A DNA stretch of 49,714 bases from Candidatus Omnitrophota bacterium. GTDB taxonomy: Bacteria; Omnitrophota; Gorgyraeia; Velamenicoccales; Velamenicoccaceae. The stretch's first letter is position 1, and every line of letters starts with the position of its first letter. Shown piece by piece: positions 14,425 through 37,606 of this stretch. The notes under the pieces are model-generated. The model was not told the DNA's origin and searched no databases. It worked only from the letters and a program-made list of their open reading frames with translations. The stretch spans positions 1-49,714 of the forward strand of contig JAGVOQ010000007.1 of the NCBI GenBank assembly GCA_020052645.1, given 5' to 3'. The translations under genes and the position numbers were made by a program.

Positions 14425-14508
14425 GCAAAAGGCAGAGGATTTATTTAATGCAAAAAGCTGGATGTTCGTTTTAGTGTGGGTTGTAAAGAAGGACACAGGG
14501 AGGAACTC

Positions 14509-15339
14509 ATGGATAAAAACGCAAGTACCACTATAAGCATGTTTGGAATTTTGAGCGACGCGTTTAGGGCTTATAGGCGAAGATTTCTTTCTATCGTGGC
14601 CATCTGTAGTTTAAATGTTTTTTTCTTTAAACTCTTGCAGTTGGCGCTGCCGTTAAGCAAGTCTGAAACACCCGTACCTATTCAGATTTTCTTTTCGCTT
14701 TTATTTTTTTGCGCGTGGCTGGTGGTGCTCGGGTTGGGGGCTTTTTTAAATATTCTGATCATAAATAATATTAGATCTCAGGAAAAAAATCTTTCGTTCG
14801 CAGCGTCATTTGATGACGCGCGTGGACGCATCATTCCTTATTTAAAGGCGTATTTTCTCCAAGTAGCTATGGTCTTGGCTTTTCTGGTGCCGGCTTTTTT
14901 CGTTCAGACATTCGGCCGTTTTGTTTATTTGTCGCAGCAGCCTGTTTTCTCTCCACATGCGCGCATGGTGGTTCTTTTGATCACCAGTACGATTTTTGTC
15001 ACATTGTTGATCGCGGCTTTTTGGTATCTTTTCTTTTTTTCACTCAGCCCCCTTGTTAATGCCTTTGAGAATGTTGGGGCTCGACGAGCTTTGCGGGAAA
15101 GCCGACTGCGTGTCAAGGGGAATGCTTTGCGTTATTTAGGAGTTTTTTCAATTATTGTTTTAACCTACTTTTTCGTCGGGTTAGTGGCTTTGGCCATTGT
15201 CATGATCTTTACTAAAGATCCTTTTATTTTTCGTAAGATTGATCCTGTGTTGATGACGCTTTTTATCCCCCTGGGGATTTCGGCCTGGTGGATGAGCTAT
15301 CAACGGCTTACAGAAATATCAAAAGATCGGCATGTTTAA
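14509..15339 (+). CDS. Six-helix integral membrane protein of unknown function
   Basis: The 276-residue protein starts at ATG 14509 behind GGGAGGAACTC, a strong ribosome binding site. About six hydrophobic segments are visible (residues near 28-50, 65-95, 120-145, 155-185, 205-230 and 245-265). After the first helix comes an SFDDARGRIIPYLKAYF amphipathic region. The pattern (polar FxDAFxAYRRRF start, paired helices, ARRALRESRLRVKG loop) resembles DUF-type membrane proteins related to the GPDPase membrane domain, but I do not assign a function. It lies between gyrB and gyrA. Confidence 0.72.
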   Translation: MDKNASTTISMFGILSDAFRAYRRRFLSIVAICSLNVFFFKLLQLALPLSKSETPVPIQIFFSLLFFCAWLVVLGLGAFLNILIINNIRSQEKNLSFAASFDDARGRIIPYLKAYFLQVAMVLAFLVPAFFVQTFGRFVYLSQQPVFSPHARMVVLLITSTIFVTLLIAAFWYLFFFSLSPLVNAFENVGARRALRESRLRVKGNALRYLGVFSIIVLTYFFVGLVALAIVMIFTKDPFIFRKIDPVLMTLFIPLGISAWWMSYQRLTEISKDRHV

Positions 15340-15434
15340 TTTTCAATCATCAATTTCTAAATTCAAGATAATATTTCAGGAATCAATGAACAAAGCTTCT
15401 TAGGAGCAAAATTAAGGAAAGACTCCTTGTTTAG

Positions 15435-15485
15435 CACAGAAAGTGTAGGCCTACCTAATTCCATATAAGGGTAGGGCCTAAGCAC
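15435..15485 (+). ncRNA. Stem-loop module M1 (partial leader element)
   Basis: CACAGAAAGTG precedes TAGGCC (15446-15451) pairing with GGCCTA (15475-15480). The same architecture with compensatory base changes occurs at 15564-15598 (TAGACC/GGTCTA), 15611-15690 (TAGCCC/GGGCTA) and 35766-35800 (TAGCCC/GGGCTA). It appears to be a duplicated module of the leader element described at 15488-15723. Confidence 0.5.
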
Positions 15486-15487
15486 TT

Positions 15488-15723
15488 GGTATTTTCCTGC
15501 CATGGTAAACCGGCATGAAATTACCTGCGTAAACTGCGGAGTTAATTTTGTAATCCAGAAGGATAGACCTAACCCAATCCAAATAAGGGTAGGGTCTAAC
15601 ACAGAAAGTGTAGCCCTGCCGCAGAAAGCGGCATACCGGCCTGTCCATAAAGGCCGGGTATAGAAAGATTCCGAATAGAGGAAGGGGCTAAGGAAGAAAC
15701 ACCATTAAGAGAGGCAAAGTTAA
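15488..15723 (+). ncRNA. Structured leader element A, upstream of gyrA
   Basis: The 5' stem GGTATTTTC/GAAATTACC encloses a GCC..GGTAA..CCGGC loop. It is followed by a core stem TTAATTTTG (15542-15550) with CAAAGTTAA (15715-15723) that includes the A of the gyrA ATG. Between the core arms lie several stem-loops, including TAGACC/GGTCTA, TAGCCC/GGGCTA and a strong ATACCGGCCT/AGGCCGGGTAT hairpin. Related elements lie directly upstream of the lipoprotein gene (35843) and tadB (36752). The same strand and position in all three argue for a cis-acting RNA that masks the translation start. It matches no riboswitch class I can recognise. Confidence 0.6.
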
Positions 15724-18170
15724 TGTACGCGCAAAATGAAAAAATAATTCCGGTTTGCATTGAAGAGGAAATGAAGAGCTCGTATCTTTCTTACGCGATG
15801 AGCGTTATTGTCGGTCGCGCCCTTCCTGACGTCAAAGACGGTCTTAAGCCCGTACATCGCAGGATCCTCTATGCGATGCATGAGCTTAATTTAGATCATA
15901 GCAAGCCTTATAAAAAATCAGCTCGTATCGTCGGTGAAGTCTTAGGTAAATATCATCCGCACGGTGACACCGCGGTTTATGAAACTCTTGTGAGGCTTGT
16001 TCAGGATTTTTCGCTTCGCTATCCCTTGGCCGAAGGCCAGGGGAACTTTGGTTCTGTGGACGGCGATGCTGCGGCAGCCATGCGTTATACAGAAGCGCGC
16101 CTGGCCGCTATCTCCAATGAGATGCTGGCGGATATCGATAAAGATACAGTTGATTTTGTTCCTAATTTTGATGCGTCTTTACAAGAACCCATTCTTTTGC
16201 CTTCTGCGCTCCCTAATCTTTTGGTTAATGGATCCAGCGGTATCGCGGTTGGTATGGCGACCAATATTCCCCCGCATAACTTGACGGAAGTTGTTGACGG
16301 TATCGCATACTTAATCGATCATCCGGATGCCGAGATTAAGGAATTGATGAAATTTGTCAAAGGGCCTGATTTTCCGACGGGCGGAATTATCTGCGGCCGT
16401 AGCGGCATCAAAGACGCCCTTGAAAGCGGGCGGGGAAAGATAATGCTTCGCGCCCGTGTTTCCATCGAGCGCCAGAAGAGCGGCAAAGACAATATTCTGA
16501 TCACGGAAATCCCATATCAGGTCAACAAGACCACTTTGATTGAAACCATCGCCGATTTAGTTCAGGAAAAGAAAGTTGAAGGCATCAGTGACCTGCGCGA
16601 TGAATCCGATAAAGACGGTATGCGCATTGTTATTGAGCTTAAGCGCGATACCGAACCCCAGATCATCCTCAATCAGCTTTATAAACATACGCAGATGGAA
16701 ACAACATTCGGCATTATAACGCTGGCCTTGGTCGATGGGCGTCCTAGGGTTTTAAACCTTAAGCAGGTGATGCGTTGTTACGTGGACCATCGTAAGGTGA
16801 TCGTTCGTCGACGGACACAGTTTGAATTGGATAAGGCTTTAAAACGCGCCCATATTCTGGAAGGGTTGAAGATCGCGTTAAAATATCTTGATAAAATTAT
16901 TAAGACCATCCGTGAATCCAAAAATACGCTGGAAGCGAAAAAGGCGTTGATGAAAAATTTTGATTTATCGGATATCCAGGCCCAGGCAATTCTAGAAATG
17001 CAGTTGCAGCGCTTGACGGCCCTGGAGCGGGATAAGATTGAAAGCGAATACTTAGACCTTTTAAAGCAAATTGAGAAATACCGGGCGATTCTGACATCAG
17101 AAAAAATGGTCGAAGAGATCATTAAGGAAGAGCTGGCCACTTTAAAAAAGAAATACGGCGATGAGCGTCGCACGGAAATTATCGGCGAAGTGGAAGATAT
17201 TGAACTCGAGGATTTGATTGCTGAAGAAGACATGGTGATCACGATTTCTCATGAGGGTTATATCAAGCGTTTGGCCATGAGCGCCTATCGTAAGCAAAAG
17301 CGAGGCGGCAAAGGTGTTTCGGCCATGGAGACGCGCGAAGAAGATTTTGTCGAGCATCTATTTATTGCCTCGACCAAAGATTATCTTTTAGTGTTTACGG
17401 ATCAAGGTCGCCTGCACTGGATCAAAGTTTATGAAATCCCTCAGGCATCGCGCCAGTCCAAGGGCAAAGCTATTATTAATATTTTGCAGTTAGCGGCTAA
17501 GGAGAAACTCGCGGCTGTTTTGCCGGTCAAAGAATTCTCCGACGATAAATCAATTGTTTTGTGCTCAAAACAGGGCGTTATCAAGAAGACGGTGCTTTCT
17601 GCGTTCGCAAATCCCAGGAAAGGCGGCATTGTCGCCATGGGGTTGGATAAAGATGACGGTGTGATGGGGGCAAAACTTACAGACAGCAATCAAGATATTC
17701 TGTTGGCGACATCTCAAGGGAAAGCTATTCGTTTTCAAGAAAAGCAAATCCGAGAAATGGGTCGTCAGGCCAAAGGTGTCAGGGGCATTTCTTTAGCGAA
17801 AAAAGACGAAGTTATTGGTATGGAGATTGTTTCTGCTGATTTGACCAAGACAGGAGCGACCATTTTAACCGTTACGTCTTCAGGTTTTGCAAAGCGCACG
17901 GTTATCGATGAGTACCGCATCCAGTCGCGCGGCGGCAAAGGCGTTATCAACGTGAAGGTGACAGCAAAAAATGGCGCAGCTGTGGCTTTGAATTGTGTTT
18001 TGCCAGACGACGAATTAATGACAATCACGCAACAGGGCATGATGGTGCGTTGTCCTGTGAAAGATATCCGCGAAACAGGGCGTAACGCTGTAGGCGTGCG
18101 TTTGATTGCTTTGGATAAGGGCGATGTTGTTACATCTGTTGCCAAGATTATTGCAAAAGAAGAAGAATGA
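15723..18170 (+). CDS. gyrA: DNA gyrase subunit A
   Basis: This 815-residue subunit performs DNA cleavage and strand passage with GyrB. The catalytic tyrosine is Tyr122 in [10 protein letters not shown], at the same position as in E. coli. The quinolone-contact region reads [11 protein letters not shown], giving Thr83 and Glu87. The C-terminal beta-pinwheel carries a GyrA box variant, QKRGGKG, near residue 523, so true gyrase wrapping activity is expected. The ATG is chosen because a GAGG lies eight bases upstream and the N-terminus [20 protein letters not shown] aligns with the family. The start codon lies within the 3' arm of leader element A. Confidence 0.96.
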
Positions 18171-29715: not shown

Positions 29716-30069
29716 ATGTATATAAGATTGAATAGCAGGAGAGGTCAGAATACGGCTGAGTACGCGATCCTTATCGGGGTTATCGTCGCTGCGGCTATCG
29801 CGATGCAGGTTTATGTCAGGCGCGGTGTGCAGGCCAGGATCAAAGAGTCTGTTGATTTTAGTAGGACAGCTGATGATCAGGCAGGCAATGCGATATTCAC
29901 TCAGACACAATACGAGCCTTATTATTCAGCGCAGAACACGACGCAGAGCCAGAGCGCACGTCAATCCGAATCGATGGCGTTCGGCGGTGTTACGACGAGA
30001 AATACGATTGAACAGATCGCATCAGTGCGCGGTAACCAGACAGCGGGTAACTACATGATGGGCAATTAA
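29716..30069 (+). CDS. Class III prepilin with long polar tail (pilin 6)
   Basis: The 117-residue product starts MYIRLNSRRG and continues QNTAEYAILIGVIVAAAIAM with Glu at +5. The exported part is rich in Gln, Ser and Asn (TQTQYEPYYSAQNTTQSQSA). ATG 29716 lies 11 bases after AGGAGG; GTG 29704 in the same frame overlaps that site and is less likely. It resembles the next prepilin in VYVRRGVQARIKES. Confidence 0.82.
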   Translation: MYIRLNSRRGQNTAEYAILIGVIVAAAIAMQVYVRRGVQARIKESVDFSRTADDQAGNAIFTQTQYEPYYSAQNTTQSQSARQSESMAFGGVTTRNTIEQIASVRGNQTAGNYMMGN

Positions 30070-30118: not shown

Positions 30119-30436
30119 ATGTTTAAACGGTTGGGAAAAAAAGGTCAGAGCACTCTCGAATATGCAGTTTTGATCGTGGTTATCATCGCTGCCCTTATCG
30201 CGATGCAGGTTTATTTAAAACGCGGCATCCAGGGCAAAATGAGAGAGTCTGCTGATACGATTGGCGAACAGTTTTCACCTGGGATCACACAAGGCAACAA
30301 GTACACACAGTCATGGATGAATCAGACGTCGACATCAGATCGCTGGAGCGAATCAACGATCATCCAGAACCAGTGGCAGAATAGAAGCGGATACGAGAAC
30401 GTTATTAACGCGTCCAACGAATATTGGGGCCATTAA
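30119..30436 (+). CDS. Class III prepilin (pilin 7)
   Basis: This 105-residue prepilin has leader MFKRLGKKG and then QSTLEYAVLIVVIIAALIAM with Glu at +5, and VYLKRGIQGKMRES, matching the neighbour. The polar tail has several Trp and Asn residues (SDRWSESTIIQNQWQNRSG). AGGAGGTGAAAAGTAA precedes ATG. High similarity to pilins 6 and 8 suggests recent tandem duplication. Confidence 0.83.
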   Translation: MFKRLGKKGQSTLEYAVLIVVIIAALIAMQVYLKRGIQGKMRESADTIGEQFSPGITQGNKYTQSWMNQTSTSDRWSESTIIQNQWQNRSGYENVINASNEYWGH

Positions 30437-31457: not shown

Positions 31458-32951
31458 ATGGGAGAAATTATGTTGAATATAGCGCAAAAGACGATGATTG
31501 TTAAGATGCAGCCTTCTACAGGGCAGGCATTGATAGAACTTGCTGTCTTTGGCGCGATTTTTCTTGTTGTTCTTTCTGTGCTTGTGCGCTATGGCATAGA
31601 ATTTAACCTTCAGCAGAAAGCTGAGATGACGGCGCATCGCAGGGCATTGGCTATTGCGTCAACCTCTGTCAGCGATGTTGGTTCTCCGGCTGTTCCTATG
31701 GGCAGTGGAGGATATAGTTCCAGGCAAGATGTGTTTATTCCGGATGTTGCGGAATCCATGGGGCAGGGGTCTGCTTCGTTAATAGGAGCGTCAGCCAGTG
31801 TAACGCGCAATCCTGTAGCGCACCTAACGACCGGGACACCTTCTCCTTATGTCGTGGATTCGCAGAATTATCTGCGCATAAATAGCAGCGGAGCAACAAA
31901 AGATTTCAGGAGAAAGAAGACTTATGGAAGCGGCTTTAGGATTGAGAACAGTGTTTCACAGTTTTCAATCCCTAAATACGAGGAATTTTATAGTATTTTA
32001 GTTCAAGCATCTGATCTTAGTTGGAGGTTTTGGGATGCCGGCGCCGAAGACATGGAAGCCGCTTATAAGACAACGTGTCTTACAGGTGCATGGGTGCCAA
32101 ATCCTTCTTATGACGCCACTTCTTCCGGTTATGGTACTGGCGGTTCTGGTGGTGAAGGCGGTTCTGGTGGTTCTGGCGGTTATGGCGGCGGAGGTTCTGG
32201 TGGTGAAGGCGGTTCTGGTGGTGAAGGCGGTTCTGGTGGTGAAGGCGGCGGAGGTTCTACTGGTCCGGAGGGGAATACTGATTCTGATGGTGATACTCAG
32301 TATGTCTATGCTTGTTCGGAGTATGGCCTTACTTTGCGCATTGACGATCCTTGTCTTGCAACAACTCCGGAGTATGATACTTGTTATGAACAGGCGCGCG
32401 TGATTGTTGATGTGGATTACTGCAAATTAAAATGCACTAAGACTAATAACTGCGCATATATTGCGACAAGGACAGCTTGTGTAAAGAAATGTGATGATCT
32501 TTGTGTGTTGGAGACAAATCCGCCTCATCAAACCAATACTTCGTATGATCCGGCTTTAGGGGGCGCTTGGTATGCGGCAGATTATGCTTATTACAATCAT
32601 GCGTTTCTCGATAATACTCGTCGGGTTTATACATTTCCATACCTGGATCGATTTTTTAATAAGTCTCTTTCAAAAAAATTCGGGCTTGGAGCTGATGGAG
32701 CGAAAACAACCGGCGATTTTCAAACCCAGGCTTTTGATAAACAGGAAACACCTACGCGGGTGGTGACAGGAGAAGCAGCCGTGTGGAATGAGACCTCTAA
32801 CAGTAATACTCTTTATCAGAACAATCTGGATGAATATGGTTATCAGCTTGAGGATAGAAGGCCTGATGAATACGCTGATAATGTTACAGTGATGTCTATT
32901 CCTTCAGAGGTTTCAGTAAGGTTGAATCAGACGTGGCAGACAGATAAATAG
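31458..32951 (+). CDS. Large TadE-like pseudopilin with Gly-rich linker and Cys-rich region
   Basis: The 497-residue product has a class III leader ending STG, then QALIELAVFGAIFLVVLSVL with Glu at +5. The exported part carries a tandem SGGEGG/SGGYGG linker at about residues 224-268, encoded by an 18-bp-type repeat (32131-32260). A following segment (about 280-360) has around ten cysteines (CSEYGLTLRIDDPC, CKLKCTKTNNCAY, CVKKCDDLCV). Disulfides in the periplasm or on the surface are likely. TadE/TadF proteins are minor pseudopilins of about 150-200 residues, so this is an expanded version. ATG 31458 is preceded by AGAGGA; 31470 is an alternative. Confidence 0.7.
   Translation: MGEIMLNIAQKTMIVKMQPSTGQALIELAVFGAIFLVVLSVLVRYGIEFNLQQKAEMTAHRRALAIASTSVSDVGSPAVPMGSGGYSSRQDVFIPDVAESMGQGSASLIGASASVTRNPVAHLTTGTPSPYVVDSQNYLRINSSGATKDFRRKKTYGSGFRIENSVSQFSIPKYEEFYSILVQASDLSWRFWDAGAEDMEAAYKTTCLTGAWVPNPSYDATSSGYGTGGSGGEGGSGGSGGYGGGGSGGEGGSGGEGGSGGEGGGGSTGPEGNTDSDGDTQYVYACSEYGLTLRIDDPCLATTPEYDTCYEQARVIVDVDYCKLKCTKTNNCAYIATRTACVKKCDDLCVLETNPPHQTNTSYDPALGGAWYAADYAYYNHAFLDNTRRVYTFPYLDRFFNKSLSKKFGLGADGAKTTGDFQTQAFDKQETPTRVVTGEAAVWNETSNSNTLYQNNLDEYGYQLEDRRPDEYADNVTVMSIPSEVSVRLNQTWQTDK
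32131..32260 (+). repeat. In-frame Gly-rich tandem repeat
   Basis: GGTTCTGGTGGTGAAGGC and close variants repeat about seven times, encoding Ser-Gly-Gly-Glu-Gly-Gly units between two parts of the TadE-like protein. It is a flexible linker prone to copy-number change. Confidence 0.75.
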
Positions 32952-35622: not shown

Positions 35623-35689
35623 GATTAAGGAAAAGAAATCATTGTGAGAAGTAAAATAAATGAAAAGTTGCCCCTGGCTCAAGCACTCA

Positions 35690-35838
35690 GTCATTTCATA
35701 CCAGCACGGTTGGGCATGAAATGACCTTCGTAAGCTGCGGGGTTAATTTTGTAACACAGAAAGTGTAGCCCTGCCTAATTCCTCATAGAGGAAGGGGCTA
35801 AGGAAAAAGTACCATTATGTGAGGCAAAATTAAGGAGA
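35690..35838 (+). ncRNA. Structured leader element B, upstream of the lipoprotein gene
   Basis: The 5' stem is GTCATTTCAT (35690-35699)/ATGAAATGAC (35716-35725). The core stem is TTAATTTTG (35743-35751)/CAAAATTAA (35825-35833), ending next to GGAGAG. Inside lies the module TAGCCC (35766-35771)/GGGCTA (35795-35800). It is homologous to elements A (15488-15723) and C (36642-36743), with the 5' arms varied but still complementary. It lies on the same strand as its gene and ends four bases before the ATG at 35843. Confidence 0.65.
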
Positions 35839-35842
35839 GTGT

Positions 35843-36433
35843 ATGAAGAGCGTGTTGCGTAAATTGATGTTGGTTTTTTTAAGCGTTTGTCTGTTGGCGG
35901 GGTGTTCTTATTTTCAAGAGGATGATGTGGCTTTTGCCCGAAGGTTTTGGAAGTTGTTTTGCGCCGGGGATTATGCGGCGATAAGCATGGTAGACTGGTC
36001 AAAAGCAAACTTTTTCGGGCAGGATATTGCTAAAGAGTACAATGCTTTGCCGGATAACGATAAAAAATCAGCTTATGCCAAGCTTTTGATCGATGTTTTT
36101 TCACAAGGGTATAAACAGATGTCATATTTTTTTAAAAATGTCAAAATTTTCAATTGGAGGGTTGTCAAAAGCGAATCAAACTTAAAAGTTGTTGCTGTTA
36201 ATGTTGTTGATTTAAGCCGTACGTTTTTTTTCCACATTAGTCATGAAAATATGGGCAAAAAAATCGTCGGCATGTTGGCAGTAGCTCCGGGCTATAGTCC
36301 GGAATTAGCTGTAAAAATGGCGAATTATTTTGAACAAGGCGGCACCCCGGAAGGTTTGCTTAAGGCAGCGCAGCAAGGCAAGCAACCAGATGACATTTTT
36401 AAACAGGGTGGTCAAAATGTTACGCAGCAATAA
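35843..36433 (+). CDS. Lipoprotein of unknown function in the Tad locus
   Basis: The 196-residue protein has a lipoprotein signal with LLAGC (Cys near residue 21), so it is probably lipidated. The rest is soluble and mixed alpha/beta, with no recognised domain. It could be a pilotin-like or TadD-like component, but no TPR pattern is visible. GGAGAGTGT precedes ATG 35843, whose region is enclosed by leader element B. The next pilin overlaps its 3' end. Confidence 0.68.
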   Translation: MKSVLRKLMLVFLSVCLLAGCSYFQEDDVAFARRFWKLFCAGDYAAISMVDWSKANFFGQDIAKEYNALPDNDKKSAYAKLLIDVFSQGYKQMSYFFKNVKIFNWRVVKSESNLKVVAVNVVDLSRTFFFHISHENMGKKIVGMLAVAPGYSPELAVKMANYFEQGGTPEGLLKAAQQGKQPDDIFKQGGQNVTQQ

Positions 36434-36620
36434 AAACACAGGTGTTTCTATCATGGAATATGCTGTTTTAATAAGCATATTGGTGCTTGCCATGATGGCG
36501 TTTCAGACGCCTTTAAGAAGGGCTATTAATTATAAATGGAAGCAGTCGATTGACAGTGTTTTTTCAACAGACGGCAGGCAGTATGAGCCAGGAATTACAA
36601 CAGTGACGGTCAATGAATAA
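36417..36620 (+). CDS. Class III prepilin-like protein (pilin 10)
   Basis: The 67-residue product MLRSNKNTG then VSIMEYAVLISILVLAMMAF has Val at +1 and Glu at +5. Its start overlaps the end of the lipoprotein gene. It resembles pilin 7 and 9 in the QSIDSV and GRQYEPGITT region. The low-conservation +1 residue is unusual but the class III pattern is kept. Confidence 0.68.
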   Translation: MLRSNKNTGVSIMEYAVLISILVLAMMAFQTPLRRAINYKWKQSIDSVFSTDGRQYEPGITTVTVNE

Positions 36621-36641
36621 TGATCCCTTATCTGAGCGCTT

Positions 36642-36743
36642 GAAAATATTCTTGCCAGGGTAAGCCGGCAGAATATTCTCTTCGCAGATTTCGGGATTAA
36701 CTTTGTAAGGAAGAAAAACCATTATATAGGCAAAGTTAAGGAG
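36642..36743 (+). ncRNA. Structured leader element C, upstream of tadB
   Basis: The 5' stem GAAAATATTCTTGCC pairs with GGCAGAATATTCTC (36667-36680) around a GCCAGGGTAAGCCGGC loop. The core stem is TTAACTTTG (36697-36705)/CAAAGTTAA (36731-36739), next to GGAGAGG. C lacks the internal stem-loop modules of A and B, leaving GGAAGAAAAACCATTA, which A and B share. This is the shortest version. Confidence 0.65.
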
Positions 36744-36751
36744 AGGTTAAA

Positions 36752-37606
36752 ATGTTGGTGTTGCAGGGTTTGATCTTCATATTTATCTTTGTTTCGGTAA
36801 CGCTGGCGTGTTTCCAGTTAGTGCCGATGGCCTTTGATAAATTTTATAGCTGGCGCGTGCGGGGCGTTGAAACGCAACGCACCAGGCTCAAAGAAATGTT
36901 TTTGGACCTTGACCCACAGAAATTATTTCTTTTAAACGTAGGTTCGCCGGCTTTATTGTGCGGCATAGCTCTTTTGATAACAAAGAGCGTGATCGGTGCT
37001 TTAATAGGTTTGGCTGTTGGTTTTGCTATTCCGGCGCTAATTGTTAAAAACCTTATTCTTGCGAGGAAATCAAAGTTTCAGTCTCAGATTACAGACGGCC
37101 TGATGATTCTTTCAAGCTGTTTAAAAGGTGGTTTAAGTTTGTTGCAGTCAATTGAGGCTCTTGTGGAAGAGCTTCCGCCGCCTTTAAGCCAGGAGTTTGG
37201 ATTGATTTTACGCGAAAATAAGATGGGTATTTCTTTGGAGGAATCTTTTGAGAATTTGAACAAACGCATGCCATCAGAAGAACTTAATCTTTTGACAACG
37301 TCTATCCTGGTGGCGCGCGAAACAGGCGGCGATATCACGTTGTTGTTTGACAGACTCGTGGATACGATCCGCGCCAAAATAAAAATTAACGACAATGTTA
37401 AGACATTGAGCATGCAGGGAAAAATCCAGGGCGTGGTGATGTCCATGTTGCCTATAGCGTTTGCGATCCTTGTTGTTTCGTTTCAGCCGAATTATTTTGA
37501 CATCATGCTTTCAAATGCCACGGGACGTGGGTTGATGATTTATGCGCTTATTTCAGAAGTTATGGGGATATTTTTGATCAAGTCATTTAGCAGGGTGAAT
37601 GTGTAA
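36752..37606 (+). CDS. tadB: Tad inner-membrane platform protein TadB
   Basis: The 284-residue protein has the T2SSF fold of inner-membrane platform proteins: hydrophobic segments near residues 3-24 and 73-100, the GGLSLLQSIEALVEELPPPL cytoplasmic helix bundle, ARETGGDITLLFDRLVDTIR, and terminal membrane segments. TadB and TadC are the usual pair driven by CpaF. TAAGGAGAGGTTAAA precedes ATG. It is 28 bases before tadC. Confidence 0.9.
   Translation: MLVLQGLIFIFIFVSVTLACFQLVPMAFDKFYSWRVRGVETQRTRLKEMFLDLDPQKLFLLNVGSPALLCGIALLITKSVIGALIGLAVGFAIPALIVKNLILARKSKFQSQITDGLMILSSCLKGGLSLLQSIEALVEELPPPLSQEFGLILRENKMGISLEESFENLNKRMPSEELNLLTTSILVARETGGDITLLFDRLVDTIRAKIKINDNVKTLSMQGKIQGVVMSMLPIAFAILVVSFQPNYFDIMLSNATGRGLMIYALISEVMGIFLIKSFSRVNV

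Follow-up and report, generated by a model that had tools for sequence, protein, structure and literature searches.

A probable family of fold-conserved, mobile-like repeats that lies 5' of SD sequences and accepts nested modules in an Omnitrophota genome and its relatives

The stem-loops that precede the gyrA-like gene in the window, the 49,714-nt stretch of DNA from Candidatus Omnitrophota bacterium analysed here, belong to a repeat system dispersed throughout the genome rather than to a leader dedicated to a single gene. They are modules, here termed B, of a larger structured unit, U, of which the window holds three copies: element A, element C and a bare copy at 36620-36742. U and its modules probably constitute a novel repeat family that is non-autonomous, mobile-like and conserved in structure, lies 5' of Shine-Dalgarno (SD) sequences and accepts nested modules.

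Architecture of U and its modules

Without inserts, U spans ~100-125 nt and comprises helices P1-P5 in the layout ACTCC TTG(C)TTAA..GC-CTTG, the P4 hairpin, CTGCGYAAGCTKC and GGAGT, followed by TTAATTTTG..CAAAATTAA. Across 17 full copies, 96.2% of the cells in its 30 pairs are paired and 14 of the 30 pairs have changed on both sides, a covariation matched by 0 of 500 shuffles; P1, for instance, alternates between ACTCC/GGAGT and ATCCC/GGGAT. With a covariance model (R2) we found 81 U matches at E≤0.1 in the genome to which the window belongs (G000), in which the stretches around matches were read. The apex of P4, and in distant families also P5, is swapped for unrelated hairpins with the pairing kept, and the core TCCCTTGCCTAAACGCTTG..CTGCGCAGGCTKCGGGA is retained in those families. 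Tandem arrays of 2-4 U also occur.

The preliminary description had singled out four stem-loops with a TAGnCC/GGnCTA stem, and all four are present where it placed them: TAGGCC 15446/GGCCTA 15475, TAGACC 15564/GGTCTA 15593, and TAGCCC/GGGCTA at both 15611/15685 and 35766/35795. This stem is real, but it makes up only half of module B, a ~47-nt double hairpin that itself lies inside U. The stem is the second half of B; the first is another hairpin, in which an AGAA(A) loop caps a short stem of CAC/GTG, TCC/GGA, CCC/GGG or CGC/GCG. The AGAAAG runs previously taken for spacers are indeed found before the stems, but they are the loops of this first hairpin, which immediately precedes each stem. 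Its variants at the window stems (CAC-AGAAA-GTG, TCC-AGAA-GGA and CGC-AGAAA-GCG) are compensatory as well, and the compensatory changes first noticed in the TAGnCC/GGnCTA stems are genuine, the fourth pair among B copies being A-T in 27, T-A in 20, C-G in 5 and G-C in 5.

The genome of the window contains about 100-120 B copies, with 121 matches to a sequence-only model (R1), and the 346-nt stretch 15380-15725 yields 80 matches across its 1.72 Mb (best non-self E=1.5e-51). The initial B copies were picked by pairing, and covariation was recounted on copies from the sequence-only model built from them. The resulting alignment (A4), its 79 copies recruited purely on sequence, has 93.9% of its cells paired and shows changes in both partners at 10 of 14 pairs; such double changes are found in 133 cells, as against 48 ± 8.5 in shuffles and ≤13 in slid controls. 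B is found in other genera too, with 69 copies in one distant family.

B recurs at three sites within U, all of them preceding a TA(A): one separates P1 from P2 on the 5' strand, one lies between P1 and P5, and one is in the P5 loop. B is also found head-to-tail behind another B, and these position classes accommodate 61 of the 67 near-complete copies, in a class split that loose regular expressions make approximate. Both ends of B most often carry the trimer TAA, which occurs just once at the corresponding junction of B-free U copies; the TA(A) flanking B on each side could be read either as a duplication or as a fixed end. A third double hairpin, module G (GCCGCAGAAAGCGGC-ATACCGGCC..GGCCGGGTAT), is found in the loop of some B copies.

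Element A (15420-15722, forward strand, as are all window features given below) has the composition U+B+B+B(G), one of its three B modules carrying a nested G, and ends at the gyrA start codon. The 5' strand of its P1, ACTCC (15422-15426), pairs with the 3' strand GGAGT (15538-15542). Module B1 (TAGGCC stem; 15432-15481) occupies insertion site 1, the P1-P2 position on the 5' strand, and is followed by the U core with P2, P3 and the P4 hairpin region (15482-15537). Downstream of P1, the 5' strand of P5, TAATTTTG (15543-15550), opens into a loop that at insertion site 3 holds B2 (TAGACC stem; 15551-15599) and, head-to-tail behind it with a TAA common to both, B3 (TAGCCC stem; 15597-15691). The loop of B3 contains G (15618-15661), composed of GCCGCAGAAAGCGGC and the ATACCGGCC/GGCCGGGTAT double hairpin. 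The 3' strand of P5, CAAAGTTA (15715-15722), is followed directly by the ATG of the gyrA-like ORF (15723-18170; 815 aa).

Element C (35667-35836) is a U with one B (TAGCCC stem; 35752-35801) in the P5 loop, an SD, AAGGAG, at 35832-35837 and a start codon at 35843. The bare U has ATCCC/GGGAT as its P1, with the SD AAGGAG at 36738-36743 and the start codon at 36752. The proposal that the elements grow by added modules holds: element A has three B, element C one and the bare copy none, and copies elsewhere have none to several. The composites are still predicted to fold (z=-5.6 for element A, z=-3.9 for element C) because the inserts occupy loops or the joints between helices.

Further repeats were observed beside these. 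Five B copies with identical scores in G000 (C4:45-93, C16:6497-6545, C17:27601-27649, C46:34-82 and C47:5580-5628) and a near-identical sixth (C43:88-136) include several very near contig ends, and this set probably belongs to a longer, multicopy element at which the assembly broke. Head-to-tail B arrays outside a complete U are present in G000 at C41:4704-6016 (L142, ~1750-3050 of C41:3000-8000) and at C8:5235-5406. Another repeat of similar style, TTACTCCGTATTTTnCTAAATTAGAGAAATTAAGGTAGAAAATCCGGAGTT, lies near U and B (L032 2550-2660, L041 2580-2770, L135 ~2131, L141 ~2161) and may be a fourth module type. The window also contains a 115-nt direct repeat in two neighbouring ORFs (29742-29856 and 30142-30256; 73% identity) and a Gly/Ser-rich coding repeat at 32120-32257.

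Genomic position and distribution of U

The 3' end of U mostly adjoins an SD, a start codon or the 5' end of a tRNA, and reads CAAAATTAAGGAG..ATG or ..TTAATG. On the 5' side, a co-directional upstream gene usually terminates within a few nt of U. In two genomes of the same family in which U is mostly single (G003 and G005), 53 of the 57 copies end ≤15 nt from a gene start; one U in these genomes adjoins tRNA-Ser by the tool's count, and a second tRNA-Ser case (L099) was recognized by eye. The corresponding share in G000 is lower (41 of 72 copies, while a further 11 have another U behind them), because the model match is shortened by inserted B modules and where copies are degenerate. In distant families U again ends in AGGAG or, judged by eye, in the opening bases of tRNA-Ser or tRNA-Ala. 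The genes downstream of U are unrelated and, judged from their start sequences, include groEL, dnaK, ssb, coaX, serS, infC, ilvC, ribH and gyrA. One U copy precedes an infC-like gene with an apparent ATT start (GGGAGGTGGGGTATTAAAAAATTC; L029, G000:C36, reverse strand, ~2560-2600). No convincing antisense copy of U was seen, the antiparallel matches (L078; C36:5213-5332) being weak.

Four genomes of the same family have 60, 91, 70 and 58 U copies, two others (G002 and G007) have 7 and 13, and U-like matches occur patchily, in 42 of the 292 genomes of the class. As G002 and G005 (7 and 91 U copies) belong to one genus, we used the flanks of 16 U-bearing junctions in G005 to locate the orthologous places in G002 and then aligned them. 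Ten of these are clearly colinear in G002 and have no U (for example, gctatagcaaaataaa[106 nt]..AAGGAGaagagATG in G005 versus gctatagcaaaataaGGAGaacaaATG in G002), and the ribH junction has U in both genomes, as it does in G003. The other five are ambiguous: they either do not align or have different short insertions or hairpins in G002. Across genera, about 10-12 junctions among the sampled positions of four genomes have U in common, which by our estimate is roughly the chance level if operon junctions are the eligible sites.

The closest relatives of the window's gyrA-like protein (73-75% identical) are found in Candidatus Omnitrophota MAGs. The gyrA junction of named Omnitrophota MAGs has no U, although these are distant. 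In two Omnitrophota MAGs (L195 and L198), a gyrB-like gene and a short spacer precede gyrA, whereas the gene before gyrA in the window (compare 14476-18170) is a 287-aa, membrane-protein-like ORF.

U thus shows no constant association with a defined orthologous gene set, given the low sharing between genera and the empty orthologous sites within a genus, and a conserved regulon was rejected on the low orthologous sharing of its positions. The RNA leader with site-specific growth that had been envisaged is not supported either, because the repeats are dispersed and precede unrelated housekeeping genes and tRNA genes; orthologous junctions without repeats in a same-genus genome and the scarcity of wobble pairing described below also speak against a leader of one gene. 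Of the two outcomes named in advance as telling against a modular leader, a failure of homologues to covary was not observed, and the modules are dispersed in the genome, yet their positions are not random.

We take U to be probably mobile or formerly mobile, though its presence/absence differences may be gains or losses. No target-site duplication was detected for U, the two flanks of a copy being no more alike than flanks from different loci in four genomes. A duplicated TAA around U, suggested by the empty sites, was rejected on this flank comparison, and classical transposition with target duplication, as by a MITE of a DDE transposase, was not seen.

Proposed mechanism of spread and alternative explanations

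If U and B are mobile-like repeats, U would insert in the orientation of the gene, immediately ahead of an SD, a start codon or the 5' end of a tRNA, in a manner that leaves the downstream signal intact. B modules would enter U at the TAA positions between helices or in helix loops, and G would enter the B loop, the fold surviving each time. The presence/absence differences would then be insertions and not losses, and the near absence of harm to translation would explain why copies persist. Conceivably, though we would not lean on it, the hairpins allow spread as folded single-stranded DNA by an HUH/Y1-like enzyme encoded elsewhere; a single-strand (HUH-type) mechanism could account for the missing duplication, the hairpin dependence, the constant orientation and the short 3' context rich in G (GGAG, GGGG).

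A different account, which we regard as unlikely, holds that U is a cis-acting RNA (a translational operator, insulator or leader) recruited before many genes, with B as tuning insertions. The ACTCCTT of the P1 5' strand is complementary to the SD AAGGAG and would be held by the internal GGAGT, giving an anti-anti-SD switch. Such a role would fit the invariable location of U on the gene's strand, directly before the SD, since strict co-orientation is also expected from RNA function, and it would fit the strong covariation and the conserved unpaired core nucleotides. It sits poorly, however, with downstream genes that are unrelated and include tRNA genes, with the lack of U at orthologous genes within a genus, and with a search of Rfam that returned no match of any kind to a described family.

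The pairing statistics bear on the same question. Locus-by-locus RNA selection on pairing should make G.U pairs common and A.C rare. In four genomes the pair cells of U comprise 3474 Watson-Crick, 71 G.T and 45 A.C, and G.T and A.C are nearly balanced (~47 versus 41) when the outermost pair is excluded. The tRNAs of the same loci, unlike U, have 534 Watson-Crick, 33 G.T and 0 A.C cells, a comparison weakened by the fitting of the U alignments to the model and by ARAGORN, which may under-report mismatches. These counts are suggestive, not decisive, in favouring recognition of DNA structure, or replacement through recent copying from a small number of perfectly paired masters, over locus-by-locus RNA selection. 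Predicted SD accessibility is higher with U (0.54) than with shuffled U (0.45), in keeping with a cis-acting RNA, but it is higher still when the flanks are joined (0.64); on these predictions U therefore seems tolerable to translation and not helpful. U may nonetheless have an RNA function.

It is improbable that resident RAYT-like Y1 transposases mobilise U and B in the manner of REP sequences, as a palindrome tagged with four nucleotides (GGAG ahead of P5 or GTAG in B). Y1 genes of this type are present in the window's own genome and in 23 of 30 relatives, GGAG lies directly 5' of P5, and the lack of target duplication at U would be in keeping with such a mechanism. The 14 Y1 loci examined are, however, flanked by other palindromes, and the single U present in the sequence around them is not linked to the gene. 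Nor does the number of Y1 genes track that of U (G007, a fragmented assembly, has 13 U and no Y1 match), and GTAG is not invariant in B, many copies having GGATAG. RAYT-like genes of ~310-315 aa (MARPYRLQ...) at L147, L149, L150 and L154 are flanked by GGGGTCAG../..CTGACCCC palindromes, which are a separate REP system in these genomes. As for other enzymes, IS110 is absent in ten genomes, and reverse transcriptase is absent from the window's own genome despite about 80 U and present in some relatives.

Old vertical inheritance, with U ancestral at many junctions and precisely lost in genomes such as G002, is very improbable: it would explain the few junctions common to two or three genera and the wide occurrence of U in the class, but this sharing is roughly what chance would give, the tandem arrays and nested B show gain, and the distribution is patchy.

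Beyond the probable family of mobile-like repeats, we tentatively raise the possibility of a bacterial class of mobile element that recognises the context of an SD or an RNA 5' end. It would insert without target duplication 5' of SDs and tRNA starts, conserve only its fold, exchange hairpins freely and host other mobile double hairpins within its loops, and it may have been co-opted as a portable translation-initiation module.

Significance and relation to known repeats

If our interpretation is right, a folded insert lies where the mRNA is most sensitive in up to about 5% of the genes of these uncultured bacteria, including many essential ones (an estimate from 60-90 copies and an assumed ~1500-1600 genes), and genomes of a single genus differ about tenfold in U load. 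They would offer a natural experiment on a mobile element that occupies ribosome-binding sites harmlessly, and the covariance model could be used to annotate intergenic regions of the phylum. The repeats would also counsel caution, as strong covariation among paralogous repeats alone is no proof of RNA function.

Among the papers searched, none dealt with Omnitrophota repeats or described the U/B family, but several known systems resemble it in part. Pneumococcal BOX and mitochondrial double-hairpin elements come nearest in form and behaviour; we propose common descent with none of the systems compared. The TAACTGA direct repeats of marine Beggiatoaceae (PMC4679880) are likewise abundant, patchy and located just upstream of the start codons of unrelated and essential genes, but they are short heptamer arrays and not structured composites. 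REP/BIME sequences with their RAYTs are also high-copy intergenic hairpins in Y1-encoding genomes, whereas U and B have no linked RAYT or invariant GTAG tag and form a larger multi-helix unit at SDs.

Module B is similar in form to the mitochondrial double hairpins of Allomyces and sponges (PMC2800124), in which two adjacent hairpins are also a dispersed unit with complementary substitutions, tandem growth and frequencies that differ in close relatives; a lack of flanking duplications has been reported for those of Allomyces (PMC2800124). B is bacterial, however, and lies mostly within a second structured repeat, U, and we claim no homology.

In architecture only, U with its none to several B modules is comparable to the BOX elements of Streptococcus pneumoniae (boxA-boxBn-boxC), which are deemed parasitic, non-autonomous elements (PMC3049150): both are high-copy, small, interspersed composite repeats with a variable number of an internal self-folding module between conserved outer parts. 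The sequence and fold of U and B appear to be different, and for U we found no target duplication and identified no related insertion sequence. Unlike BOX, moreover, U adjoins the SD or tRNA 5' end itself, its modules nest within modules, and its fold is conserved across genera.
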